Positions 30,113 to 42,277 of a stretch of 42,277 bases of DNA are shown in pieces. How positions within the stretch are numbered: position 1 is the stretch's first letter; each line of letters opens with the position of its first letter. Source of the stretch: Eubacterium sp. Lineage in GTDB: Bacteria > Bacillota > Clostridia > Lachnospirales > Lachnospiraceae. A program made the position numbers and the translations under genes. The notes under the pieces were generated by a model. That model searched no databases. It saw only the letters and a program-made list of their open reading frames with translations, and was not told where the DNA came from. The stretch covers positions 1 to 42,277 of the forward strand of contig JAEFAB010000051.1 of NCBI GenBank assembly GCA_016292095.1. The letters run 5' to 3'.

Positions 30113-32350
30113 TTATTTTATTTTCACCCGTTTTACTTTAGACCATTCTCCCCAGGTTTTCACTTTATTGTTCTTTTTGAATGCACGGGCCTTCACATAA
30201 AGAACTTTCGCCTTTACAAGTTTCTTTCCCGAAACCTCAAAGCGGTATTTGGAAAAACACTTTGTAATCGTCTTTGCTTTCTTAAATTTCCTGTTGGAAG
30301 ATATTTTTACCTGATAACCGCTGGCTCCGGAAATTTTCTTTAATGCCACCTTCGCGCTCTTGGCTTTCCGGTTCTTCTTTTTTATTTTTTTCACAACGGT
30401 TCTTCCTACTTTACATACAATCGGTTTCGTTGTAGTTTCCGCCGGAGTCATTCCCTTTACCGGAGCACTGATGACCTTATTGATTCCTGTTGGAATAACT
30501 ACTTTATAATCATTTCCCCGGTTCACTTCATTGGCAAATGTACTTTGAATACGACTTCCGTAAATCACATCGCCATATGGACAATTCGCATAGGTCAGTC
30601 CGTTATAGCGAATGCATTTTGTTGTGTTTTTATATTCGTACTTGATTACCGCTCCCGGATTATCACCGGAAGTCTGCTGTCCGTCCACACCGCATCCTAA
30701 AACAGAAGTATTATTGAAAACAATACCGGATGGGCTGTTAGAGATTTTAATCGCATCATGCTGTGCATTGTAAATATAGGTATTGTTAAACGTAATATTT
30801 TTTACTGCTCCTGAAATATCAATGGCCCCCAAAGGACTGTTCCAGGAATCAGATGCTGTTCCTGAACGGACAATGATATTGTTGGAAATTTCAATTCCTG
30901 TGTTTTTCGTATATTTATATCCATCGAAATTCGTATTCAAATGGATTCCTGACGCCATAAAGGTGTCGGCAATATAGTTGTTGTATACCTTATGCCCGTT
31001 TCCGCCGTATATGGCAATCGCACCTGCTCTCCAGATAAAATCAATGGTGTTATAGCAAAAGACATTATTTGACTCATCTTTTGCGCTTAAATAACTGTTA
31101 TTCCACATTGCAAGTCCATCATCTCCGTTGTTTCGAATAGAACAGTTGTATACCGTTGCGTTACTGGTTCCCTGACAGAAATTCACACCGTCAGCTAAAT
31201 TGTTGCGAATTCTGCAATTTGCAATTACCAATCCATCGGAATATTCCACCGGACTTGAATAATCTGCCAACCAGAATCCACATTCAAAATGTTCTTCCCA
31301 AACATCATGAATATAACACTGATTCCAAACATCTTTGAAACACTTATAATTAGCATTCTGATTATAGCGTGATCGAAGGCTGGAATTAATATACATATGA
31401 CAAAACTCTACATTTTTGGCACTGTTTCCGGAAATTCCACCTCTGCCGCTTGCAGAACTGGTGAATTGGATTTTTGTATGCCATACCCCGGCTCCGGTAA
31501 TCTTAATATCCGATGCATTGATGTTCCAAACCTGACCGATTCGATAAGTCCCCTCAGGAATATAGACATCTTTTCCGTCTTTCTTTGCCTGGGTAATACA
31601 TTTCGATATGGCACCATAATCATCATACTGGTCTGAACCGTCTGCACCGTAATCTGCGATGGAATAAGCGTTCACAGGTTTCTTAATTGCAGCCGGTACC
31701 TCTTCAATTTCAAGAAAATCCACGCCATATTCCAAAGAGTCCTTTCCGGAGTGCTGAATTCGAATAGTATCCCCTTTCTTTAACGGCTGATTCAATTTGA
31801 AATGTACTTCATCAAAGGCAAAGCAAGGAGTTGCTCCGGATACCGGCGTATCCTTTGGACTTCCTGATGGGTTTACCGAAGGATTTGGTGCTTCGAAATA
31901 CTGCCACATAAAGTAAGAAGTCAGTTCTACGGTCTGCACCTTTTTTCCGTTCACATAAACATCAACCGATCCCTGCTGTCCCATTCCGTCACTACTGTCC
32001 GGCATGGTAAATCGCATCGTTACTCCTGCCCCGCCGGTATTAACGGTCCACTGTGCATAAGCACCTTTCTTCGGTAATCGCACATAGGACTGTTCCGATG
32101 CCTGTGAGGCAATGTTGTTCTTTTCAAACTTTGCGGAAACTGCCAGCTTTGCTTCATTTCCCAAGGTTGCCGCCTTAGAATCATATCTTGTGTAAGGCAT
32201 TGTAGCACCGATTTTTTCCACTGCTGCATTTGCTTCCGGGATAGCGACTTGATCTGATGCACAGACTTTCGAAATTCCGGTCTCCATAAATGTTCCTCCC
32301 ATAATCAATGTTGTCGCCACTGTACAGACAATCACTTTCTTCCAATTCAT
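30113..32350 (-). CDS. Secreted beta-helix glycoside hydrolase, probable GH87 alpha-1,3-glucanase
   Basis: 745 residues. The signal peptide ends near VCAS (31). Residues 40-215 form a CBM6/35-like beta-sandwich (GSVDVYVNGKKV, YGVDFLEIEEV). Residues 228-620 are a right-handed parallel beta-helix opening with IADYGADGSDQYDDYGAI and TGAGVWHTKIQF. D387 (NNLADGVNF), D410 and D411 (NNGDDGLAMW) sit at offsets 0/+23/+24, the spacing I recall for the catalytic Asp triad of GH87 alpha-1,3-glucanases (mutanases). A Thr-rich linker leads to a strongly basic Fn3-like C-terminal domain (665-745), shared with the upstream protein and probably binding the cell wall. Last gene of the three-gene operon. Family assignment is from motifs and context only. 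Confidence 0.72.
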   Translation of the reverse strand: MNWKKVIVCTVATTLIMGGTFMETGISKVCASDQVAIPEANAAVEKIGATMPYTRYDSKAATLGNEAKLAVSAKFEKNNIASQASEQSYVRLPKKGAYAQWTVNTGGAGVTMRFTMPDSSDGMGQQGSVDVYVNGKKVQTVELTSYFMWQYFEAPNPSVNPSGSPKDTPVSGATPCFAFDEVHFKLNQPLKKGDTIRIQHSGKDSLEYGVDFLEIEEVPAAIKKPVNAYSIADYGADGSDQYDDYGAISKCITQAKKDGKDVYIPEGTYRIGQVWNINASDIKITGAGVWHTKIQFTSSASGRGGISGNSAKNVEFCHMYINSSLRSRYNQNANYKCFKDVWNQCYIHDVWEEHFECGFWLADYSSPVEYSDGLVIANCRIRNNLADGVNFCQGTSNATVYNCSIRNNGDDGLAMWNNSYLSAKDESNNVFCYNTIDFIWRAGAIAIYGGNGHKVYNNYIADTFMASGIHLNTNFDGYKYTKNTGIEISNNIIVRSGTASDSWNSPLGAIDISGAVKNITFNNTYIYNAQHDAIKISNSPSGIVFNNTSVLGCGVDGQQTSGDNPGAVIKYEYKNTTKCIRYNGLTYANCPYGDVIYGSRIQSTFANEVNRGNDYKVVIPTGINKVISAPVKGMTPAETTTKPIVCKVGRTVVKKIKKKNRKAKSAKVALKKISGASGYQVKISSNRKFKKAKTITKCFSKYRFEVSGKKLVKAKVLYVKARAFKKNNKVKTWGEWSKVKRVKIK

Positions 32351-32374
32351 TTTTCTTCCTTCCTCATAAGTGCC

Positions 32375-32412
32375 AATAAGATGGCAGCCACATTGTGAAC
32401 CGCCACCTTATT
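32375..32412 (-). other. Intercistronic stem-loop
   Basis: Minus strand AATAAGGTGGC and GCCATCTTATT pair over 11 bases with one wobble, between the 607-residue gene and the glucanase gene. No U-tract. Such stems often protect upstream mRNA, so the binding proteins may be made in larger amounts than the enzyme. Confidence 0.5.
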
Positions 32413-32419
32413 AAAAACA

Positions 32420-34243
32420 CTATTTTGTCATTTTAACTTTCTTAACTTTTGACCAAGCGCCATATACTTTTGTATTTTTTGCATTCAGTACATAAGCTCT
32501 TGCTTTAATAAATACTTTCTTTTTGTTCTTTAATTTCTTTGATTTAATCTTTACAGATACTTTCTTTACACTCTTTACAACGATTGCTTTTTGGTTCTTC
32601 TTTGCACTCTTATTTGAAGTGTAAACTGCAACTTCGTATCCCTTAGCTCCTTTTACTTTCTTTAAAGTTACTTTAATGCTCTTTGCTGATTTTTTCTTTG
32701 TTGCTTTCTTAACGACAGCCTTACCAGGTTTCTTAACTTCTGCTGCCTTAGTCGTTGTCTGTTTCTTTGTTGTGGTTTCAACAGGATTAATTACATCTCC
32801 TGATGAAAGATCTGCTGATTTTGAAAGTCTTGCCATACCGATTCTGAAATTAAACTCTTTTGGCTGTTCCCCGTAACCGGCATGCATATGAACTGAATTG
32901 TATTTTGAAATATCAATTCCTGATGCTTCCAAATCAATAACGATTGTTGTACCTTTTCCGCCATCCAATGGAATTTCGCTTCCATCAGCAGTTACAAAGA
33001 ATTTTGTCTGACCTTCAGGATTGAACCAGTAAGGTCCAGCCTTTTCCACATCATTTCCGTTTTCATCAACGAAGGAGAATTCAAAACGAACGGAAGCGAT
33101 GTCTCCTGCATAAGTTAAAATGAGATATTTGTATTCTGCTGTAGGCTCTTTTAATGTTGCAAATCCGAGATATTTGTATCCGGCTTTTACTGTAGGGAAG
33201 TTCTTAATCATTGAGCTCTGTCCGTTTTCATCACCGTTTAAGATTAAGTCATCTTCTCTACCCTGTCCTGATGTCTGAATTTCTTCTTCTGTTGTTTCTT
33301 CGTCAGTGGATTGTTCCTGAGTCTTTTCTCCTGCTTTTAATACCACGCTCTTCAATTCATAAGTAAATGCTTTATCTCCACCTGCATGTAAGTGAACAAA
33401 CTGTCCTGCTGTGTAAGAAACGCCTGTCTTTGCAAGATCGATTGTTACGGTAGTTTCTGTTTCTGCATTTAATACGATTGCAGAACCGTCTACTGTCTGG
33501 AATGTTCCTTCTGCATTATCTGAGAACCATGTAGTTGAAACATCATTCTGTAAACGAAGTGTGCTGATATCACCAACATATGTAATTTCTAAGATTGTAT
33601 AGTCTGATGTAACGGTATCAGGAATAGAAAATCCTCCCTGGTATGCATATCCTGCAGCAACTTCCTGAGGACCTGTAATATCCTGACCATCTTTTCCTAA
33701 CTGAAGTGGTACATCTGCAGGCTTTGTATCCTCAGCTTTTTTCAATTTTACACTCTTCAATTCATAAGTAAATGCTTCTGCCCCACCTGCATGTAAGTGA
33801 ACAAACTGTCCTGCTGTGTAAGAAACTCCTGTTTTTGCCAAGTCGATTGTCACGGTAGTTTCTGTTTCTGCATTCAATACAATTGCTGAACCGTCTACTG
33901 TCTGGAATGTTCCTTCTGCATTGTCTGAGAACCATGTAGTTGAAACATCATTCTGTAAACGAAGTGTACTGATATCACCAACATATGTGATTTCTAATAC
34001 TGTAAAGTCTGATGTAACGGTATCAGGAATAGAAAATCCTCCCTGATATGCATATCCTGCAGCAACTTCCTGAGGACCTGTAATATCCTGACCATCTTTT
34101 CCTAACTGAAGAGAAACTTCTGTTACTTCTTGTTCTCCACCTGCGATTTCTCCGTCTGCCTTTACCTGAATTCCTGCAAACCCGCCAAATGCCATTGCTG
34201 CAACGCAAGTATAAGCCACTAATTTTTTAAATGATTTTCTCAT
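32420..34243 (-). CDS. Secreted three-repeat protein of an unrecognised domain, likely glycan-binding
   Basis: 607 residues. Signal peptide 1-29 (VKA-D). Three copies of a domain of about 125 residues: copies 1 (45-168) and 2 (180-303) are nearly identical, offset by 135 residues; copy 3 (332-475) is more like the domain of the anchored protein upstream. Shared features: YxGxF or YLGFA start, TYxGDI, then WFSDN or WFNPEG with a conserved Trp-Phe (W104, W239, W406), DGS, TTVTIDL and a His-x-His (H149/H151, H284/H286, H452/H454). A Thr-rich linker (485-505) and a basic Fn3-like domain (520-607) follow. No enzyme motif is visible. I infer a carbohydrate-binding beta-sandwich serving the glucanase of the same operon. 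Confidence 0.75.
   Translation of the reverse strand: MRKSFKKLVAYTCVAAMAFGGFAGIQVKADGEIAGGEQEVTEVSLQLGKDGQDITGPQEVAAGYAYQGGFSIPDTVTSDFTVLEITYVGDISTLRLQNDVSTTWFSDNAEGTFQTVDGSAIVLNAETETTVTIDLAKTGVSYTAGQFVHLHAGGAEAFTYELKSVKLKKAEDTKPADVPLQLGKDGQDITGPQEVAAGYAYQGGFSIPDTVTSDYTILEITYVGDISTLRLQNDVSTTWFSDNAEGTFQTVDGSAIVLNAETETTVTIDLAKTGVSYTAGQFVHLHAGGDKAFTYELKSVVLKAGEKTQEQSTDEETTEEEIQTSGQGREDDLILNGDENGQSSMIKNFPTVKAGYKYLGFATLKEPTAEYKYLILTYAGDIASVRFEFSFVDENGNDVEKAGPYWFNPEGQTKFFVTADGSEIPLDGGKGTTIVIDLEASGIDISKYNSVHMHAGYGEQPKEFNFRIGMARLSKSADLSSGDVINPVETTTKKQTTTKAAEVKKPGKAVVKKATKKKSAKSIKVTLKKVKGAKGYEVAVYTSNKSAKKNQKAIVVKSVKKVSVKIKSKKLKNKKKVFIKARAYVLNAKNTKVYGAWSKVKKVKMTK
33344..34111. repeat. Near-identical internal duplication of about 363 bp
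   Basis: The DNA coding for domain copies 1 (33749-34111) and 2 (33344-33706) is almost the same base for base, including long identical runs, with a 405-base offset. The rest of the locus is not repeated at this level, so the duplication is recent or kept uniform by gene conversion. Confidence 0.85.
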
Positions 34244-34269
34244 ACTTAAACCTCTATCTTTCCAGGAAA

Positions 34270-35043
34270 TTATTCCTTAATTTTTCTCGAACCAATCAAT
34301 GCAACTGCTGCAACAGCCATACCGCCTAATGCAATGAAAATTGGGTATGTTACAGAACCTGTCTGTGGAGCATCTGTTGCACCACCTGCTGTTCCTGCTG
34401 TTCCTGTTCCCGAACTGTTTGCACCTGTTCCGGAACTGTCTTTGGAAGCACTGCTGCTATTACTTGATCCGGAATCAGATGAGCCTGAGTTCTTTTTGTT
34501 TTTAGACTTAGATGAACCGGAATCACCGCTTGCATTCGGATCACTTGTCTTAAATCTTGCATCAGTAATTGTAAAGGAACCTTCCTGCATATTTGGATCT
34601 AAGTAATGAAGATGCATTCCTCTGAATTCTCCAATATCAATTCCAATTGCAGCTAAATCCAATGTAATTGTAGTTTCTTTACTAGGTGTTAATGGAATTT
34701 CACTTCCGTCTACAGTTTTAAAGAATAAAGTCTGTCCATCCGGATTAAACCAGAATGGTCCTTCATTGGAATCATCTTCTCTGTTAAATTCAATTCTCAA
34801 ACAACTGATATCTCCCTTGTATGTAATCTGGAGATACTTATAATCTGATGTTGCCTCTTTTGTTGTTGCAAAACCAAGATATTTGTATTCTCCACCACTG
34901 GCCTTGTATTCTCCAATCAGTGAACTGGCTCCACCGTCTCCGTCCAGTACAATATCATCGGCTGCAAAAACCATTGTGTTCATAGTAAGTGTCATAGCTA
35001 ACACTCCGGCAATGGCTGCCATTTTCTTAAAAATTTTTCTCAT
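34270..35043 (-). CDS. Sortase-anchored surface protein with one unrecognised domain
   Basis: 257 residues from ATG 35043; a TTG at 35049 is also possible. Signal peptide 1-27 (VFA-A). One domain at 30-163 has the features of the neighbouring repeat protein: YKYLGFATTKE, TYKGDI, GPFWFNPDGQ (W98), DGSEIP, TTITLDL, HLH at 144-146. A Ser/Gly/Asn-rich spacer (165-222) spans the wall. The end is a sorting signal: APQTG (225-229), a hydrophobic stretch (about 233-250) and the basic tail SRKIKE. Such xPQTG motifs suit class B sortases, and one is encoded divergently 270 bases away. First gene of the operon. Probably displays the glycan-binding domain on the wall. Confidence 0.82.
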   Translation of the reverse strand: MRKIFKKMAAIAGVLAMTLTMNTMVFAADDIVLDGDGGASSLIGEYKASGGEYKYLGFATTKEATSDYKYLQITYKGDISCLRIEFNREDDSNEGPFWFNPDGQTLFFKTVDGSEIPLTPSKETTITLDLAAIGIDIGEFRGMHLHYLDPNMQEGSFTITDARFKTSDPNASGDSGSSKSKNKKNSGSSDSGSSNSSSASKDSSGTGANSSGTGTAGTAGGATDAPQTGSVTYPIFIALGGMAVAAVALIGSRKIKE

Positions 35044-35097
35044 TTTCAATCCACTCCTTATCCTCTTTTTACATTGATTTCCGTCCTAAACCCTGAT

Positions 35098-35158
35098 AGG
35101 TTTAACGTTCAACGTTTAACGTTAAACCTATGTTATCACGAGGGGATTTTTTTGTCCA
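35098..35158 (-). promoter_or_regulatory. Operon promoter with long palindromic LacI-type operator
   Basis: Minus strand TGGACA (35153-35158) and TAACAT (35130-35135) lie 17 bases apart. Directly downstream, AGGTTTAACGTT (35098-35109) and AACGTTAAACCT (35118-35129) are perfect 12-bp inverted arms. AACGTT occurs three times at exact 7-base steps (35104, 35111, 35118). The central-CpG form fits a LacI-family repressor, and the same core lies before the LacI gene at 39.8 kb. Confidence 0.75.
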
Positions 35159-35185
35159 CCTTCGTTTTCACTAAAAAACCGAATC

Positions 35186-35210
35186 TTTTTTGTGTACTTT
35201 ACACAAAAAA
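35186..35210. promoter_or_regulatory. 11-bp inverted repeat between divergent promoters
   Basis: TTTTTTGTGTA-CTT-TACACAAAAAA is perfectly symmetric, lying between the surface-protein promoter and the sortase promoter. A 3-base loop is tight for a hairpin, so it may be a protein site. Confidence 0.4.
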
Positions 35211-35252
35211 ACGTTTCGTTCTCACTTCTTTTTAAACAGTTCCTATATATTC

Positions 35253-35281
35253 TTGCAAAAAAAGACGGAACCTTTTATAAT
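35253..35281 (+). promoter_or_regulatory. Sortase gene promoter
   Basis: TTGCAA (35253-35258) and TATAAT (35276-35281) with a 17-base spacer, 32 bases before the sortase ATG. The palindromic operator lies more than 120 bases upstream, so the sortase may be expressed independently. Confidence 0.65.
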
Positions 35282-35313
35282 GCTTTTAAAATTGAATACA
35301 AAGGAGAACAAAA

Positions 35314-36834
35314 ATGGAAAAAAATCCAAAGAAAAAGCTACGGCGTATTCTGACTGTTTCTTCCATTTTTCTCTTTTTAGGTTGTGGATTTTTTCTCTTG
35401 TATTATCTGGTTCTTCAGCCCTATCATTCCAGAAAAGTCAATGAGAAATATCGAACTCTCTACTACTCCTATGAGAGCGTTGAAGAAACCACTGAAAAAA
35501 AATCCAAAAGCAAAAAGAAAGCGGAGCCTATTGATATCAATCCAGATCAGGATTATAAAAATAACGCCAAAGACGAAAATGGCGTTTTACTGAAATTTAA
35601 GAAACTGATTGGGTACAATGAAGATATTCGCGGGTGGTTAAAAATTCCCGGCACCAAAATCGACTATCCTGTTATGCAGGATTACCATGGTGGCGACTAT
35701 TACCTGGAACATGATTTTGAAGGGCACAAAGATAAAAACGGTTGCCTTTATTTAGACGGCCACAGTTCCATTGAAATCCCCAGTACGAATCTTGTAATTC
35801 ACGGTCATAATATGGATTCCACCCATATGATGTTTTACGAACTTCCCAATTATAAAAATCTGGAATTTTATCAAAAACATCCCGTCATTACCTTCGATAC
35901 CTTATATCAGAATTCCAAGTGGAAAATCATTTCTTTTATGAGGGTATCCGGCACGATGGAGAAAAACAAAAACTTCAATTATCTTACCGGGATATTTTAT
36001 GATAAAGAGGACTTTCGAAATTTCCTTTATGAAATTGAAAGTCGCTCTTTATATCATTGTCCTGTGGATGTCAATGAAAAGGATCATTTGCTGATGCTCT
36101 CCACCTGTTCTTATGAATTTGATAATTGCAGAACGGTTGTGGTGGCTCGCAGGCTTCGAAAGGGAGAAGATGAGAACGTAGAAACCAGTCAGGCATATCT
36201 CCGGAACAATGTTCTTTATCCTGATGAATGGTATCGTCAATACGGTGGAAAAGCACCGGTTCATACTACCTTTGCTGATGCCTTGGCATTTAATGAAATT
36301 GACTGGTATGACGGAAAGAAAAAAGGGGAATCCCCGATTGGTCAGCAATACACTGTTGAAAATCATTTGCTGTTTGAACTGACTTCCTTAGATACCGTAA
36401 AGTATATCGGTTCCAACGACAATACACTTTCCAAACTTGTAATTCCTGACAAAATCGAAGTGAACGGTCGAGTTTTTAATGTAACGGAAATTGCTTCCGA
36501 TACATTTTCTTCTATGACAAAGTTAGACACGGTATATATGAAGGGCGGGATTGCAGTTCTTCCGGAAAACCTTTTCCGAAAGTGTAAAAAACTGACTACC
36601 GTTGCTTTAGGCGCCGGCATCAAAGAAATCGGTGCAAAAGCATTTTATAATATTCCGCATCTCAGGAAGTTAACGATTTCGTCAAAAGAACTGACCCAAA
36701 TTGGTGAACAGGCATTTTGGAAGACCGATTCAAAAATAAAAATTTATCTTCCAAAATCCAAAGAAAAAGCTTATAAAAAATTATTGGAAGCAGCTTCTGT
36801 TCCAAAGACTGCTACCTACAAACAAAAAAACTGA
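35314..36834 (+). CDS. Class B sortase fused to BspA-like leucine-rich repeats
   Basis: 506 residues. One N-terminal membrane helix (12-35), a Lys-rich linker, then a class B sortase domain (about 95-282): WLKIPGTKIDYPVMQ, VIHGHNM with His165, MLSTCSYEF with Cys265 and CRTVVVARR with Arg273, the full catalytic set. After a connector, residues 370-480 carry LRR_5/BspA-type repeats (KLVIPDKIEVNGRVFNV, FSSMTKLDTVYMKGG, LFRKCKKLTTVALG). Typical sortases are near 250 residues and end after the Arg strand, so the repeat tail is an unusual addition that may choose substrates or dock on a surface glycan or protein. AAAGGAG precedes the ATG. Its neighbour is a ready-made xPQTG substrate. Confidence 0.88.
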   Translation: MEKNPKKKLRRILTVSSIFLFLGCGFFLLYYLVLQPYHSRKVNEKYRTLYYSYESVEETTEKKSKSKKKAEPIDINPDQDYKNNAKDENGVLLKFKKLIGYNEDIRGWLKIPGTKIDYPVMQDYHGGDYYLEHDFEGHKDKNGCLYLDGHSSIEIPSTNLVIHGHNMDSTHMMFYELPNYKNLEFYQKHPVITFDTLYQNSKWKIISFMRVSGTMEKNKNFNYLTGIFYDKEDFRNFLYEIESRSLYHCPVDVNEKDHLLMLSTCSYEFDNCRTVVVARRLRKGEDENVETSQAYLRNNVLYPDEWYRQYGGKAPVHTTFADALAFNEIDWYDGKKKGESPIGQQYTVENHLLFELTSLDTVKYIGSNDNTLSKLVIPDKIEVNGRVFNVTEIASDTFSSMTKLDTVYMKGGIAVLPENLFRKCKKLTTVALGAGIKEIGAKAFYNIPHLRKLTISSKELTQIGEQAFWKTDSKIKIYLPKSKEKAYKKLLEAASVPKTATYKQKN

Positions 36835-36864
36835 CCTGCAACTGCAAGTCAGTTTTTTTTTTTT
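36824..36864. terminator. Bidirectional terminator
   Basis: CTGACCTGC (36831-36839) and GCAAGTCAG (36844-36852) form a stem with a long T run after it and an A run before it. It overlaps the sortase stop codon and serves the convergent operon. Confidence 0.85.
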
Positions 36865-36866
36865 TC

Positions 36867-37493
36867 TTATTTATCGTCTGAATAAATCTCAAGTTCCGCT
36901 ATCTGTCCGGCATTTGCACCGGTATTCTTTGTAATTTCAACCTGTACAAACTGAGTCTTTACCTTACCGAAATCTTTCAGAACAATTTCGTTTCCTGTCT
37001 TTGGATCAAAATCATAATCCTTCTCCGGAACTAAATCAGTCCACTTCTTTCCGTCTTCACTGGTTTTCACGGACAAGGTCTGTGTTCTTGGTCCCCAAAT
37101 ACTGTCCGGGCACAAACCGATTCGAATAGTGTGAATATTGTAAGCTTTTGCCAGCTTCACGTTAATCTGGCTCGGACCTCCGGCAGCACCTTCCCAATAA
37201 GATGCTGATTCACGTCTTCCGTCAATGGCATTAGATGCAGGATATACATCCGTGTATCCATTATCGGTTGCCTTTCCCTTCAAAGCCACATTGGTTCCGT
37301 CAATTTTGGGAGAAACATATTCTTCCACCTTGAACAAGTCATTTTCTTCCGCTTCTTTCTGATCCGGTGCACTAACCACCTTCAGATTATTCTTGGATAC
37401 TTTTGCAGGAGATGAACCGATTACGATAACAATCTGCATTGCCAGTAAAACCACAGCAAGTATTATAATTGATACTATTCCTATTTTCTTCAT
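36867..37493 (-). CDS. Membrane-anchored F5/8 type C (discoidin, CBM32-like) module
   Basis: 208 residues. One N-terminal helix (residues 5-27) acts as an anchor. From about 68, a discoidin-type beta-sandwich: NVALKGKATDNGYTDVYPAS, NAIDGRRESASYWEG, INVKLAKAYNIHTIRIGL, a KTSEDGKKWTDL strand and a final FVQVEITKNTGANAGQIAELEIY. Such modules bind sugars and are common attachments of alpha-glucan-degrading enzymes. Here the module is a stand-alone protein 9 bases after the beta-helix gene, so it probably presents substrate to that enzyme at the membrane. AGGAGG precedes the ATG. Confidence 0.85.
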   Translation of the reverse strand: MKKIGIVSIIILAVVLLAMQIVIVIGSSPAKVSKNNLKVVSAPDQKEAEENDLFKVEEYVSPKIDGTNVALKGKATDNGYTDVYPASNAIDGRRESASYWEGAAGGPSQINVKLAKAYNIHTIRIGLCPDSIWGPRTQTLSVKTSEDGKKWTDLVPEKDYDFDPKTGNEIVLKDFGKVKTQFVQVEITKNTGANAGQIAELEIYSDDK

Positions 37494-37502
37494 AACGACC
37501 TC

Positions 37503-39113
37503 CTACTTTACTTCAATATTTTCAGTGGAAAGCGGATTGACTTCGAATCCTCCATCTTCCAATGACTTGATATTTTTGCCTTTAATTTTCAATCCCTTTA
37601 TGGTTACATTGGATACTTTATGTCCATCATCATACCCTTCCACTTTGGACGGAAGGAAATCATTTCCGTAAAGTACATTAAATCCATCAATGGTAATATC
37701 TGAAATCTGTCCTCGGTCTCTTGTTGCCGACCAGGATGAGTTCTGAACAATTCCTAAATCGATTAACTGCGGTGTTCCGTCGCCCTGTCCCACACTGGCA
37801 TCTTCAACCGTAATATTCTTGTACTTGATGTTTGTAACCAAAGCGTCATCTGCATTGTGGATTGACAATACCGGTTTATGGAAGTTGTGAAGGACTGTAA
37901 TGTCTTCAAACGTAATATCCTCAATTTTAGAGTTTTCCTTCTGACCTTTATTGGTCTCATATCCGATTTCCATAGACTGTGCCAAATCAGTCCAAATCTG
38001 CACATTCTTGAAACGAATATTTGTGCTGTTTTCATCATAGTTCTTTACAACCAAGGAATCATCCCAGCTACGAACAAAGCTGTTTTCCACCTTAAAACTC
38101 TTACAAGACTGTAAGGAGATTCCATCACCGTTTGGTCTGGAAGTAATGATCTTTAAGTTGTCTATTTTTCCTCCAATGGTGTCATAAGCCTGGAAACACC
38201 ATGCATTTGCATTTAATGCGCAAACGCCTTCTACGGAGACATTGGTACAATTATCAAATTTCAAAGGAATACGCGGAGTTCTTCCTTTCCATCCTCGAAT
38301 CATGGAACCGTCAATAATTCCACGTCCGTACACTTTTACATTGGATGCAAAGTTTGCATTAATAATTCCGTGTACAACCGCTCCACCGGAAATATATACT
38401 TTATCTCCGTCTTCTAATACAATATTTTCAATATTCCATTCTCCCGGTCCGATATACTTAACATTTTCGTCATCCGGACTCGGTGCGTCTTCATCAATTT
38501 CATTGGCAAAAATATGTACTGCTCGTTTTACGTTTTTATTAAATTCCACGGTATATGCATCCGGTGTATCAACATAAAATGTCACACGATGATTCTTTAC
38601 ATCAATTTCCGGTTTAATGTTGTATTTTAATGGTCTGACTGTAACCGCTTTAATATCAATATCCTTTACTTCCACAGTAATCTGTGCTGTTCCATCAAAA
38701 TCAAAATAGGTCATCGGTGTTCTTTCCTGGGCCGGATAATAATCTGTCTTCCATGTATGGGTGTTGTTTACATGTGTATCATAGACATAGCTCTCTTCCC
38801 CATTAACCATTACCTTAGTGTCCACACAATGAGTAATTGCATATTCTTCAAACTCTCGTTCATCTTCTGACAGGCTGTCGATATCTTCCTGTGTGGAATC
38901 CTGAAGTGATTTTGGTCCTTCATATAACACTACTTTACTCTTTGCAACGGCATTCCTGTTTTGCATATTCTCCACTGTTTTCGGGAGCTGTATTGCACTG
39001 TAGATAATTCCTACAACAAGAAAATACATTGCTACCCATCCAATAACAAATCCGGTTCTTCCGCCTAAGCGCTTGGACGTTGTTTTGGTTTCATTCTTTT
39101 TGTCTTTTACCAT
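37503..39113 (-). CDS. Membrane-anchored GH28/GH49-like beta-helix glycosidase
   Basis: 536 residues. N-terminal basic stretch and one helix (20-42), then an extracellular part. Residues 95-205 form the beta-sandwich often found before GH28/GH49 helices (VTVRPLKYNIKPEID, AYTVEFNKNVKRAVHIFAN). The helix starts at WNIENIVLEDGDKVYISGGAVVHG and GRGIIDGS. Candidate catalytic D330 (RPNGDGIS) and D351/D352 (RSWDDSLV) have the 0/+21/+22 spacing of GH28, but its GHG and RIK motifs are missing, so it is not an ordinary polygalacturonase; GH49 (dextranase) kinship fits the alpha-glucan context. Start ATG 39113 (GGAGG 8 bases upstream) overlaps the pgmB stop by 7 bases. Confidence 0.72.
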   Translation of the reverse strand: MVKDKKNETKTTSKRLGGRTGFVIGWVAMYFLVVGIIYSAIQLPKTVENMQNRNAVAKSKVVLYEGPKSLQDSTQEDIDSLSEDEREFEEYAITHCVDTKVMVNGEESYVYDTHVNNTHTWKTDYYPAQERTPMTYFDFDGTAQITVEVKDIDIKAVTVRPLKYNIKPEIDVKNHRVTFYVDTPDAYTVEFNKNVKRAVHIFANEIDEDAPSPDDENVKYIGPGEWNIENIVLEDGDKVYISGGAVVHGIINANFASNVKVYGRGIIDGSMIRGWKGRTPRIPLKFDNCTNVSVEGVCALNANAWCFQAYDTIGGKIDNLKIITSRPNGDGISLQSCKSFKVENSFVRSWDDSLVVKNYDENSTNIRFKNVQIWTDLAQSMEIGYETNKGQKENSKIEDITFEDITVLHNFHKPVLSIHNADDALVTNIKYKNITVEDASVGQGDGTPQLIDLGIVQNSSWSATRDRGQISDITIDGFNVLYGNDFLPSKVEGYDDGHKVSNVTIKGLKIKGKNIKSLEDGGFEVNPLSTENIEVK

Positions 39114-39751
39114 AATATTTCCCTCCATTGATTTACTGTGGCAAGATTTTCTGAATCATAATCAGCACCCAGTTCTCCATGATGTGGTCCCACGCCCAGA
39201 GATTTCATACCTCCGTTTTTTGCTGCTTCAACACCTGCTGCCGCATCTTCTACTACCAGACAGTCTTTTGGATCCAGTTCCAATTTCTTTGCCGCTACCA
39301 GAAATACTTCCGGATCCGGCTTTGATTTTGTCACATCCAGGCCACAACTGATTTTATCAATTAGTGGCAACAATTCTGTCTTTTCAAGAATTAACGGTGC
39401 GTTTTTGCTGGCAGAACCAACTGCTGTTAATATTCCCTTCTCCCGAAGCATCTGTAAAGTTTCCTTTGCTCCCGGAAGTAATGCCGAGGTGTCTAATTCA
39501 TTCAACATCTCCACATAATATCCATTCTTTCTGTCCGCCAGTTCTACTTTTTCTTCATCACTGTATTGGCGGTCGGATTTTTCCAAAACAACTTCCAAAG
39601 ATGCCATTCTGCTGACACCTCTCTGTCTGACATTATCTGCTCTTGTAAATGTTGTAATGCCCAATTCTTCTGCCAGACGTTTCCATGCCTGAAAATGTAA
39701 TTCATCGGTGGAGACAAGGACTCCATCCAAATCAAAAATTACTCCCTTCAT
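39107..39751 (-). CDS. pgmB: Beta-phosphoglucomutase
   Basis: 214 residues, HAD superfamily. Converts beta-glucose 1-phosphate to glucose 6-phosphate. DLDGVLVSTDELHF holds the nucleophilic Asp8 and acid/base Asp10. GVSRMASL is the substrate-specificity loop typical of beta-PGM, VGSASKNAP is motif II, KSKPDPEVF motif III, and VVEDAAAGVEAAKNGG motif IV. Family members work after GH65 inverting phosphorylases, and a GH65 gene lies on the other side of the LacI gene. First gene of the operon, divergent from lacI. Confidence 0.95.
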   Translation of the reverse strand: MKGVIFDLDGVLVSTDELHFQAWKRLAEELGITTFTRADNVRQRGVSRMASLEVVLEKSDRQYSDEEKVELADRKNGYYVEMLNELDTSALLPGAKETLQMLREKGILTAVGSASKNAPLILEKTELLPLIDKISCGLDVTKSKPDPEVFLVAAKKLELDPKDCLVVEDAAAGVEAAKNGGMKSLGVGPHHGELGADYDSENLATVNQWREILW

Positions 39752-39775
39752 TTTCTTTCTTACCTTTCTCTGCTA

Positions 39776-39829
39776 TTGCATTTTTTTATATAAATGATAA
39801 TATATAACTATATGATTTAACGTTTTACC
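39776..39829. promoter_or_regulatory. Divergent pgmB/LacI intergenic region with operator
   Basis: GATTTAACGTTTTACC (39814-39829) carries the TTTAACGTT core of the 35.1 kb operator. TTGCAT (39776-39781) and TAATAT (39798-39803), 16 bases apart, may form the regulator's promoter. The site would allow autoregulation and control of pgmB. Confidence 0.6.
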
Positions 39830-39844
39830 TCGAAAGGATTCACT

Positions 39845-40858
39845 ATGGTTACAATTAAAGATATCGCTGCTGCAACCGGAGTTAGTGCTACCACAGTATC
39901 TAACGTGATTAACGGAAAAACCGGTCGTGTATCAGCTCAGACGATTCAAAAGATTAACGAGGCAATTGAACAGCTTGGATATGTTCCAAATATGTCCGCC
40001 CGTTCTCTTGTTTCTCACTCTTCGAAAGTGATTGGTTTTATCAATCATGTCTTAACAACAAAGGGATCGAACTTTATGGAAGACCCTTTTCTTTCCAAAT
40101 TTTTAGGTATTTTGGAACAGGTTCTTCGTGAGAACGGTTATTACCTGATGATTCGAACAGCCGAAACACCGGAAGAAATTGAGTCATTTCTTCGTACCTG
40201 GGATATTGATGGCTTGTTCTTAGCCGGTATTTTCCAGGATGACTTTTTCGAATCCATTAAAGCCCAAAAGCTACCAACAGTTTTAGTAGATAGTTACGTT
40301 CACCAAAAAGACATTTGTAATGTTGGATTGGAAGACTTTGGCGGCAGCAATATGGCTACTAAATATCTCATCGAGAAAGGCCATAAGAAAATTGCTTTTG
40401 CCTCTCCGAAAATCCAAAACGGTGGTGTTTTAATGGAACGTTACCTTGGTTATAAAGCTGCTCTTACAGAAGCTTCCATCCCATTTGACCAGGAACTGGT
40501 TTTTGAATGTGGTATGGACTTAGAGCATACCCGCCAGATTGCTGATTATATTGTGGACCATCCTGATGTAACAGGAATTGTCACTACAGCGGATTTCCTT
40601 GCCGGAAATATTATGGCGAACCTGAACAAACGTGGTGTTCGTATTCCTGAAGATGTATCTGTGATGGGATTCGATGATTTAAATATCTGTACGATTATGA
40701 ATCCTCAGCTTTCTACCATTCATCAGGATATGGAATTGAAAGGACGACTAGCAGTGAAATTAATGTTAGAACTCCTGAACGGAGAAACACCAAATCCACC
40801 GGAAGTAATTCTTCCAACAACCATTGTAGAAAGAGATAGCGTAAGAAGCCTTCTTTAA
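39845..40858 (+). CDS. LacI-family transcriptional regulator of the glucan locus
   Basis: 337 residues. The N-terminal HTH reads IKDIAAATGVSATTVSNVING, followed by the hinge helix (NMSARSLVS), then a periplasmic-binding-protein-like effector domain (60-337) with GFDDLNICTIMNPQLSTI near the end, typical of LacI/GalR proteins. The effector is likely a sugar from the locus, for example nigerose or a phosphorylated product; this is inference. Located between pgmB (divergent) and the GH65 gene (convergent, 6-base gap). Confidence 0.93.
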   Translation: MVTIKDIAAATGVSATTVSNVINGKTGRVSAQTIQKINEAIEQLGYVPNMSARSLVSHSSKVIGFINHVLTTKGSNFMEDPFLSKFLGILEQVLRENGYYLMIRTAETPEEIESFLRTWDIDGLFLAGIFQDDFFESIKAQKLPTVLVDSYVHQKDICNVGLEDFGGSNMATKYLIEKGHKKIAFASPKIQNGGVLMERYLGYKAALTEASIPFDQELVFECGMDLEHTRQIADYIVDHPDVTGIVTTADFLAGNIMANLNKRGVRIPEDVSVMGFDDLNICTIMNPQLSTIHQDMELKGRLAVKLMLELLNGETPNPPEVILPTTIVERDSVRSLL

Positions 40859-40872
40859 GGCTTCTTATTTTA
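40843..40872. terminator. Bidirectional terminator between lacI and GH65 genes
   Basis: AAGAAGCCTT (40843-40852) and AAGGCTTCTT (40857-40866) pair perfectly around CTTT, followed by ATTTTATTT. The stem contains the stop codon of the regulator. Confidence 0.8.
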
Positions 40873-42277
40873 TTTCCTCAACACGGGCCTCTTTCTGATT
40901 GATTTCTATTTCGTATTTTTTATTTTCATAATGAATCCGGAATTTCATTCCTTCCCAATGCTTTGGAAGATTCGGTGCTACACTTACCCGATGATTTTCA
41001 CAGGATAATCCTGCAAAGCCACGAAGTGCCACCATATATGCCCCTCCTGCTGCTGCCGGATGGGTTCCTCCAATGTACACTAATCCTGCCCATTCTTTTC
41101 CACCACCCTGCAAATCGGCTGATGCTGATTTCATAAACAACGGAAATGCCTTTTCCGGCATATGACATCGACAGGCAAGCATTGCATACATACATGCACT
41201 TAAGGAAGAACCATGTTCTGTTCTTGGTTCATAGTAATTCCAGTTTTTCAGGAGTTGCTCTTCTGATACATCTTGTGGAAACAATGACAACCATGTAACC
41301 ACATCTGCCTGTTTAATAATCTGGGTATGACTTGCAACTCCGTAAGCCCCTCCCCAGTATTCCTTTGGATCCAGCAGTCTGCTTCGCACTTCTTCCACGG
41401 TAGTATCTTCCAAATCAAAATATCCGTCGAACTGTGGAATGATTCCCTGCTCATTTGGTTTCGGAATATATATTTTTTCATAGGCATCTCGGAAATTCTT
41501 CTTGAAGTTTTTCAGTTCTTTTTCTGACAACTGTTCTTTCAAAATTTCTGGATTCTCTTCTGCTTTTTCAATGGTATCAAGCGCAGCCTTGAAGCAGTAC
41601 TTTGCCATACGGTTTGTATATCCGTTGTTGTTTACCCTCTCATGATATTCATCCGGTCCGATGACATCATGGATTTCATAAACATCTTTTCCCACCTTCT
41701 GCTGCAATAAATCATAATAGAACTTTGCACATTCGATAATGGTATCGGCACCGCCTTCTTCCAGAATGGATTCGTCCAAAGTGAAATCAATGTATCGGCA
41801 AATACCATACACAACTGCTGCCGAAATATGGACCTGTTTATCCTTGAAATAGGTTCGCATCGGACGTTTTGTAAAAACATCTGTTACGTTATAATCAGAA
41901 CAGGCATCAAAACCGCCTTCCTGACTTTCCCACGCATAAAATGCTCCCTGATAACCATAACTTCTTGCCTTTTCTCTGGCACCTTCCAAAGTGTCAATGC
42001 GGTATCTCATTAAAGTCCTCGCTACCTTAGGATTCGTCATCAGAAAATAATCCAGCATAAACATTTCCGTATCCCAGAACACTGCGCCTTTATAGGTCTG
42101 TCCTGACAACCCGCGAGCTGCAATAGACATACTTTCTTCGTGTCGCGGTGCAATACTTGTTAAGTGATAACAGGAATAATTTAAAGCTTCCATGGACTTG
42201 TCATCTCCAAGGATTACCACTTCGGAATCTTTCCAGATTGTTTCCCAACACTCTTTATGTTCAAAGAGAAGTTTTTC
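40865..42277 (-). CDS. GH65 glycoside phosphorylase, C-terminal part (cut by window edge)
   Basis: About 470 codons; the frame stays open to the right edge, so the N-terminal domain lies outside and the GTG at 42220 is not the real start. The (alpha/alpha)6 barrel of GH65 is clear: HLTSIAPRHEESMSIAARGLSGQTYKGAVFWDTE at the start, GPDEYHERVNNNGYTNRMA with the general-acid Glu, EHGSSLSACMYAMLA, and the C-terminal beta domain VAPNLPKHWEGMKFRI. GH65 enzymes phosphorolyse alpha-linked glucosides (maltose, trehalose, kojibiose, nigerose), giving beta-glucose 1-phosphate. With beta-PGM and a putative alpha-1,3-glucanase nearby, nigerose phosphorylase is the best guess; the specificity loop was not decoded. 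Confidence 0.92.
   Translation of the reverse strand, partial: EKLLFEHKECWETIWKDSEVVILGDDKSMEALNYSCYHLTSIAPRHEESMSIAARGLSGQTYKGAVFWDTEMFMLDYFLMTNPKVARTLMRYRIDTLEGAREKARSYGYQGAFYAWESQEGGFDACSDYNVTDVFTKRPMRTYFKDKQVHISAAVVYGICRYIDFTLDESILEEGGADTIIECAKFYYDLLQQKVGKDVYEIHDVIGPDEYHERVNNNGYTNRMAKYCFKAALDTIEKAEENPEILKEQLSEKELKNFKKNFRDAYEKIYIPKPNEQGIIPQFDGYFDLEDTTVEEVRSRLLDPKEYWGGAYGVASHTQIIKQADVVTWLSLFPQDVSEEQLLKNWNYYEPRTEHGSSLSACMYAMLACRCHMPEKAFPLFMKSASADLQGGGKEWAGLVYIGGTHPAAAGGAYMVALRGFAGLSCENHRVSVAPNLPKHWEGMKFRIHYENKKYEIEINQKEARVEEIK

Follow-up and report, generated by a model that had tools for sequence, protein, structure and literature searches.

The window analysed here, a stretch of 42,277 nucleotides, is the entire contig JAEFAB010000051.1 (C70) of the Eubacterium sp. 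genome GCA_016292095.1 (2.30 Mb in 74 contigs, 91% complete). From position 30113 onwards it carries a cluster encoding a glycoside hydrolase family 87 (GH87) protein, two surface proteins built from a module here called M (M2 and M3), a class B sortase (SrtB), an F5/8 type C (F5/8C) protein, a second beta-helix enzyme (GH28L), beta-phosphoglucomutase (bPGM), a LacI-family regulator and part of a GH65 phosphorylase (GH65B) (Table 1). An initial annotation of this DNA, all of whose listed genes lie where it placed them, proposed that these parts form one pathway for alpha-1,3-glucan, a resistant polymer found in the walls of fungi and in bacterial slimes. The source is a gut bacterium, probably of the rumen; its nearest relatives are the metagenome-assembled genomes (MAGs) RUG11188 and RUI373, whose GH87 proteins are 85% and 84% identical to that of the window and whose codes we take to denote rumen projects, and yak rumen (L039) and goat omasum (L041) are mentioned in other GH87-bearing records.

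Table 1. Genes and sites of the cluster in the window
Feature	Coordinates	Strand	Evidence
GH87, putative secreted endo-alpha-1,3-glucanase with Lys-rich C-terminal domain (~residues 630-745)	30113..32350	-	CatAgl_D1/D2, 5zru, Asp triad
M2, three M modules and a Lys-rich C-terminal domain resembling that of GH87	32420..34243	-	modules 32813-33253, 33383-33685, 33788-34087
M3, with a single M module, a linker rich in Ser and a PxTG wall anchor	34270..35049	-	modelled module, anchor in relatives
Group of three LacI-type operators that overlap; the last (35114-35127) is a perfect GTTTAACGTTAAAC palindrome	35100..35127		motif search
Class B sortase fused to a C-terminal BspA-type leucine-rich repeat (LRR) region	35314..36834	+	TIGR03064, LRR_5, STC motif
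F5/8 type C binding protein, membrane-anchored	36867..37493	-	PF00754 8.6e-16; N-terminal hydrophobic stretch by eye
Beta-helix glycosidase (GH28L), membrane-tethered, GH28 by profile, GH49-like by fold	37503..39128	-	PF00295, Foldseek, Asp335/356/357
Beta-phosphoglucomutase (bPGM)	39107..39751	-	TIGR01990 226.8 bits vs cut-off 189.4
Weak operator-like site between LacI and bPGM	39815..39828		3 mismatches by eye
LacI-family regulator, putative regulator of the regulon	39845..40858	+	LacI 2.4e-16, Peripla_BP_3 2.7e-30
GH65B, 3' part (470 codons), putative inverting alpha-glucoside / nigerose phosphorylase	40865..42277	-	PF03632 3.2e-96, junction, motif EEQSYA

The enzyme at the left end of the cluster is firmly assigned to GH87. 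Both Pfam domains of its catalytic part exceed their curated cut-offs of 27 each (CatAgl_D1, 7.2e-40, 137 bits; CatAgl_D2, 5.4e-22, 78.6 bits), and the deposited alpha-1,3-glucanase 5zru matches residues 46-588 (E 2.2e-165, 555 bits). Asp387, Asp410 and Asp411 are invariant in all 13 aligned GH87 proteins from 9 genomes, and their spacing (23/24) equals that of D1045, D1068 and D1069 in the titles of the solved GH87 mutants 6k0p, 6k0q and 6k0s. The initial annotation had recognised a secreted beta-helix enzyme with the GH87 triad and had proposed a profile check against this family, and both the triad and the profiles bear it out; cleavage of alpha-1,3-glucan is the activity that these likenesses predict. 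The likeness to 5zru concerns the catalytic domain, only the crystallised part having been compared, and the window enzyme differs from it in being tied to a phosphorolytic pathway. The Lys-rich C-terminal domain has no Pfam match in either GH87 or M2; this domain of ~110 residues (window ~30113-30460 and 32429-32788) recurs at 25 further places in the genome, M2 among them. A second GH87 gene, encoding CARDB repeats, lies on contig C71 (L011:4644-11471), unlinked to the window, and adjoins a GH76 gene with CBM6 and ricin-type domains, with an operator between the two, ahead of GH87; RUG11188 carries the same GH87/GH76 pair (L047).

Another contig of this genome, C26, ends in the same 22 bases with which the reverse complement of the window begins; this exact overlap lies inside GH65B and keeps the frame continuous, and read across C26 and C70 the gene is complete (727-734 codons). 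Upstream of GH65B, C26 encodes a solute-binding protein (SBP; SBP_bac_1, 3.8e-29), two permeases (P1, BPD_transp_1, 5.5e-14; P2, named by look) and a second GH65 enzyme (GH65A), which supplies the transporter that the initial annotation had suggested looking for beyond position 42277. The join is supported by the Pseudobutyrivibrio MAG RUI423 (L044), in which SBP-P1-P2-GH65A-GH65B-LacI-GH87 run uninterrupted on one contig, with no bPGM, GH28L or M module at that place.

The assignments of the phosphorylase, whose gene is cut by the contig end, and of bPGM hold by their profiles (Table 1). GH65B has the catalytic domain PF03632, the general acid in GPDEY and an HGSSLS loop, HxSSLS being the phosphate loop of GH65 phosphorylases; no GH65 equivalog of NCBIfam exceeded its cut-off. 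Specificity motifs were read in CsKP numbering, checked on W391, E392 and T417, and this mapping works, since it returns the published residues both for kojibiose phosphorylase (EEAP) and for the maltose enzyme (K, V, F, N and S, with position 416 in a gap). GH65B reads EEQSYA and lacks both the kojibiose motif EEAPxx and the maltose motif KV[MF]NES; EEQ[ST][FY]A occurs in 12 aligned rows that come from other genomes and represent 11 distinct genes, one of them being present twice, and two more distant sequences read EEQTYP. For alpha-1,3-oligoglucan phosphorylase, the six-position pattern is FAITQA (PMC8537180). GH65A reads YAIN-T in this genome and FAIS-T in Lachnoclostridium phytofermentans KNHs2131 (G127, L043); A392 and I394 agree with that pattern in both, position 64 agrees in KNHs2131 only, positions 402 and 585 differ and position 416 falls in a gap. 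In L. phytofermentans ISDg, Cphy_3313 is a nigerose phosphorylase and Cphy_3314 an alpha-1,3-oligoglucan phosphorylase, according to a review table (PMC8950772), and KNHs2131 contains precisely two genes that match GH65 at E <=1e-20, which are adjacent and represent one type each. Because species, adjacency and motif fit, we infer that GH65A is of the Cphy_3314 type and GH65B of the Cphy_3313 type. An interim reading of GH65B as not being a nigerose phosphorylase, based on its lack of FAITQA in the loop-3 alignment alone, was dropped after A392 and I394 were found in GH65A and the pair was set beside Cphy_3313/3314. The nigerose phosphorylase of the initial annotation thus remains a putative assignment, favoured by adjacency and motif and by the missing maltose motif, and does not derive from similarity to a characterised sequence.

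The transcription units share an operator, the 14-bp CG-centred palindrome GTTTAACGTTAAAC; the putative LacI target DNA is AGTTTAACGTTAAACT, and the pattern GTTTAANNTTAAAC served to search seven relatives. With up to 2 mismatches, the window has 4 matches to GTTTAACGTTAAAC against 0.27 expected. The "similar operators" of the initial annotation correspond to the perfect site ahead of M3 and two overlapping variants, the site in the LacI/bPGM gap being weak; its LacI regulator is confirmed by profile. Genome-wide, perfect sites number three, located before SBP (C26:58875), M3 (C70:35114) and the second GH87 (C71:51843); allowing one mismatch adds two, each beside a perfect one, and the backward control at the same tolerance gives 1 forward and 1 reverse match. 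Two of the three transcription units of the proposed regulon lie mostly inside the window. Among the 20 sites found in the seven relatives, 13 have the CG centre (2 in G127, 3 in G099, 2 in G156, 2 in G297 and 4 in G206) and all of these lie upstream of SBP, M3 or GH87; the remaining 7 have other centres, 3 of them being placed between LacI and bPGM (G127, G099 and G206) and the other 4 on different contigs, namely three in G024 and one in G297. No GTTTAANNTTAAAC site occurs in G007, whose backward control has 3. Altogether, 16 of 16 perfect CG-centred sites in this genome and five relatives are upstream of regulon genes.

The same site precedes GH87 genes elsewhere. Among 80 GH87 loci, the best of 461 relatives, 15 carry a perfect site (17 sites in total), always 77-562 bp ahead of the gene that opens the GH87 unit as judged from open reading frame starts, and sites also precede GH87 genes that have no GH65 gene in the examined stretch (L039, L040, L046 and L047). 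In 19 loci hand-chosen from the 80, 16 sites were counted, against a mean of 0.12 and a maximum of 2 in 50 rounds of first-order resampling. The LacI protein would be the binder of GTTTAACGTTAAAC, since its gene sits in the operon and the LacI/bPGM gap holds a site in three relatives; its predicted ligand would be nigerose or nigero-oligosaccharides.

Gene order is conserved around the same genes. RUG11188 and RUI373 have GH65-LacI-bPGM-GH28L-F5/8C-SrtB-M3-M2-GH87 as in the window, except that an additional gene separates F5/8C from SrtB and a further one follows GH87. The relatives' locus genes absent from the window encode a 291-residue protein without a Pfam family (L037:4452-5327, L038:4437-5312) and a 662-residue protein with Beta_helix_3 repeats (L038:12343-14331). 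The full order SBP-P1-P2-GH65A-GH65B-LacI-bPGM-GH28L-F5/8C is present in 6 of the 9 relatives with GH65B of at least 62% identity (G127, which is KNHs2131, G099, G156, G297, G206 and G024); in the stretches read, G241 has neither GH28L nor F5/8C, and G355 is cut by a contig end with no bPGM seen.

Co-occurrence was assessed in 397 family genomes from 334 genera, uncorrected for relatedness. GH87 is found in 9 of them and the M module in 3. GH28L matches 18 genomes at E <=1e-20, with an identity of at least 50% in 9 of these; the GH65B type is present at 62% or more in 10 genomes and at 50-51% in 2 more, among 43 with a match at E <=1e-60. GH65B accompanies GH87 in 7 of the 9 genomes (hypergeometric 1.5e-11), the two without it (G178 and G366) having distant GH87 proteins (40% and 36%); all 9 GH28L genomes have GH65B, and all 3 M-module genomes have GH87 (8e-6). 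Genes of the GH65A and GH65B types also lie less than 10 kb from GH87 in Caproiciproducens galactitolivorans and Candidatus Paenibacillus intestinavium (L067 and L109).

The second beta-helix enzyme of the initial annotation is present, although by sequence it scores as GH28, a pectinase family (PF00295, 5.3e-12, 45.9 bits, cut-off 22.9), and by fold lies closest to GH49. Asp335, Asp356 and Asp357 are invariant in 13 of 13 family members. The N terminus has a hydrophobic stretch, and the model (predicted local distance difference test, pLDDT, 85.6) comprises an N-terminal helix (24-62), a beta-sandwich and a beta-helix. In Foldseek, the top seven PDB structures are chains of isopullulanase and dextranases (E 2.7e-16 to 1.4e-11, isopullulanase at the top), which we take to be GH49 structures, the label being our assumption for all except Dex49A; GH28 structures follow, and GH87 appears at ranks 25-27 and 29. 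Isopullulanase (1wmr and 3wwg) and dextranase (1ogm and 6nzs) share the fold over the whole length (template modelling score 0.55-0.64 by query length), whereas identity is 14-17%, no GH49 profile matches and the window enzyme is membrane-tethered. The GH49 Pfam search gave only IPU_b_solenoid in 2 of 13 members (best E 0.23), and none of the 10 sequences in a PDB sequence-profile search to E 10 was a GH49 enzyme, so the likeness to GH49 is one of fold. A relative of this enzyme with 41-43% identity lies directly upstream of GH87 in G007 (L041).

The wall- and membrane-anchored binding proteins of the initial annotation are recognisable as M3, with a signal peptide and a C-terminal PQTG anchor (by eye), M2 with its Lys-rich C terminus, and the F5/8C protein with an N-terminal hydrophobic stretch (by eye). 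PxTG is kept in 6 of 7 M3-like proteins of relatives, the seventh having ANTGS, and Gram_pos_anchor scores 17.7 bits on M3, below its cut-off of 20. M2 has no Pfam family, and Pfam, NCBIfam and PDB profile searches returned nothing significant for the M module or its proteins. A modelled M module (146 residues, pLDDT 90.1) is an eight-strand beta-sandwich resembling a carbohydrate-binding module (CBM). Among the 50 Foldseek hits listed for it (best E 5.3e-4, only 2 at E <=0.001, TMq 0.30-0.59) are many CBM entries (CBM11, 29, 65, 8 and a mannanase binding domain) as well as domains from a gingipain adhesin, from proteases and from viral capsids. Modules 1 and 2 of M2 (33383-33685 and 33788-34087) are near-identical copies, which suggests a recent duplication.

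The sortase passes TIGR03064 barely (154.5 bits, cut-off 153.75), matches LRR_5 (2.5e-15) and has the STC cysteine motif. Such a sortase together with M-module proteins stands ahead of GH87 in 5 of the 80 GH87 loci (L037, L038, L048, L049 and L050). The sortase-LRR fusion is also found in the two relatives tested, adjoining the M3 gene (L048:4890-6776 and L050:5407-7017). A count of F5/8C matches in 42 of the 80 loci was not used, since 39 have only 35-43% identity and their sameness is unproven; those in L053 and L062 lie inside the GH87 protein itself.

We consider it highly probable that the cluster belongs to a single regulon under LacI control, which would permit growth on alpha-1,3-glucan in the form of mutan, nigeran or the glucan of fungal walls and would lead from capture of the polymer to glucose 6-phosphate. 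The one-pathway proposal of the initial annotation gains from the gene order conserved in several genera, the co-occurrence of GH87 and GH65B, and the shared operator. As predicted from sequence and models, M-module surface proteins would hold the insoluble polymer, M3 being wall-anchored, presumably by the neighbouring class B sortase, and M2 retained by its basic C terminus. The secreted GH87 would cut the polymer to nigero-oligosaccharides, on which the GH28/49-like enzyme and the F5/8C protein may act at the membrane, and an ATP-binding cassette (ABC) importer (SBP, P1 and P2) would take them up. Inside the cell, GH65A would phosphorolyse alpha-1,3-oligoglucans and GH65B nigerose to beta-glucose 1-phosphate and glucose, bPGM would yield glucose 6-phosphate, and the bacterium would ferment the imported sugar. 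LacI would bind GTTTAACGTTAAAC before the SBP, M3 and second GH87 units.

Several observations weigh against this regulon. The window's own LacI/bPGM site has 3 mismatches, a perfect CG-centred site is absent in 2 of the 7 relatives searched (G024 and G007), 65 of the 80 GH87 loci, mostly from Paenibacillus and Cohnella, and 5 of the 19 chosen ones lack it, and one-mismatch sites also fall inside genes (L199, L200, L202 and L031). In the stretch read of G007, GH65A, LacI and bPGM are missing. Of the 10 genomes with GH65B of at least 62% identity, 3 (G024, G241 and G355) have no GH87, so the operon for phosphorolysis is not bound to the presence of that enzyme. The operon showed no ATPase gene, no search having been aimed at the import ATPase.

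The polymer may be nigeran, because GH87 includes mycodextranases, which cut mixed alpha-1,3/1,4-glucan (on our reading of PMC11475409). An unlikely, if far from negligible, alternative is accordingly that the target is nigeran or another mixed alpha-1,3/1,4-glucan, or an alpha-1,6-branched mutan or alternan, with the GH49-like enzyme opening the other linkage. The fold of that enzyme would suit such a role, its nearest structures being isopullulanase and dextranases, which cut alpha-1,4 or alpha-1,6 links, but motif or adjacency places both GH65 types nearest to enzymes acting on alpha-1,3 links, and the catalytic part of GH87 aligns over its full length with a deposited alpha-1,3-glucanase. 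That the locus instead serves pectin or another polyuronide is very improbable: PF00295 matches all 13 members of the GH28L family (best 2.9e-15), and the best PDB sequence match of GH28L is an exo-polygalacturonosidase, yet the GHG histidine and RxK known as GH28 motifs are unaligned by eye in the profile alignments to 8ikx and 7b7a, the fold points to isopullulanase and dextranases, and GH87 and both GH65 enzymes represent alpha-glucan families.

GH65B might also be a kojibiose or glucosylglycerol phosphorylase, the GH65-bPGM half then serving another alpha-glucoside and being connected with GH87 by shared regulation only. We regard this as improbable, even though the best PDB matches of GH65B are 4ktp (glucosylglycerol) and 3wiq (kojibiose phosphorylase) in a comparison without a characterised nigerose phosphorylase sequence as reference, E64 and E392 are common to GH65B and kojibiose phosphorylase, and three genomes hold the operon without GH87. 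In the tree, GH65B stands beside the glucosylglycerol phosphorylase BsGGP, an enzyme whose own position is unsure owing to its long branch, and apart from kojibiose and maltose phosphorylases. Nearness to Bsel_2816 is no argument against nigerose, since that enzyme is distantly related to both kojibiose and nigerose phosphorylases (PMC3899277). Against this alternative, EEQ[ST][FY] is unlike EEAP of kojibiose phosphorylase and EIGPHP of glucosylglycerol phosphorylase, and the GH65 pair fits Cphy_3313/3314 in species, adjacency and motif.

The idea of an alpha-1,3-glucan pathway of this kind is already in print, since a putative GH87 gene has been reported in L. phytofermentans near the nigerose phosphorylase Cphy_1874, together with GH31_u1 (Cphy_1877), ABC transporter and LacI genes (PMC9061262). 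A clostridial locus of this kind is therefore partly described; the sortase-anchored layout, of which the initial annotation knew no described clostridial example, is new. By the literature, ISDg (Cphy_1874 and 3313/3314 with their neighbours) has the same kinds of enzyme. In KNHs2131, GH87 is on another contig than the GH65 operon, no sortase or M module matches in the surrounding 20 kb, and the genome has no M module match. The GH31 of the ISDg cluster has no match in the present genome (91% complete), while 6 of 14 control genomes matched. A putative mutan polysaccharide utilisation locus (PUL) of Prevotella melaninogenica contains GH87, SusR, a TonB-dependent transporter, a SusD-like protein, GH97 and a GH71/99 type enzyme (available part of PMC13421300); it resembles the present regulon in GH87, surface glycan binding and dedicated import, whereas the portion of that source at hand lists no phosphorylase, sortase or LacI. 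Among open-licence PMC papers, seen mostly as listings, none was found that describes this sortase layout or operator.

The enzyme kinds are known; what is new is the sortase-anchored layout, the operator-defined regulon, the CBM-like module without a Pfam family and the membrane-tethered enzyme that has a GH49 fold and scores as GH28. Tentatively, and with some doubt as to the proposal as a whole, the M modules may be the first members of a CBM family that binds insoluble alpha-1,3-glucan and is displayed through a dedicated LRR sortase, and the tethered beta-helix protein may be the first member of a glycosidase family intermediate between GH28 and GH49, with the role of trimming nigero-oligosaccharides near the importer; together with the GTTTAACGTTAAAC LacI regulon, they would form a Gram-positive counterpart of the mutan PUL across several Lachnospiraceae genera.

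In anaerobic Clostridia, one operator would tie a predicted extracellular alpha-1,3-glucanase to an energy-saving phosphorolytic pathway, and the pathway should therefore be recognisable in other genomes by its 14-bp palindrome. The M module and the GH28/49-like enzyme represent two kinds of protein without an assigned function that are candidates for alpha-1,3-glucan binding and cleavage, respectively. The system may be relevant to the turnover of fungal walls in the rumen and to mutan-degrading enzymes.

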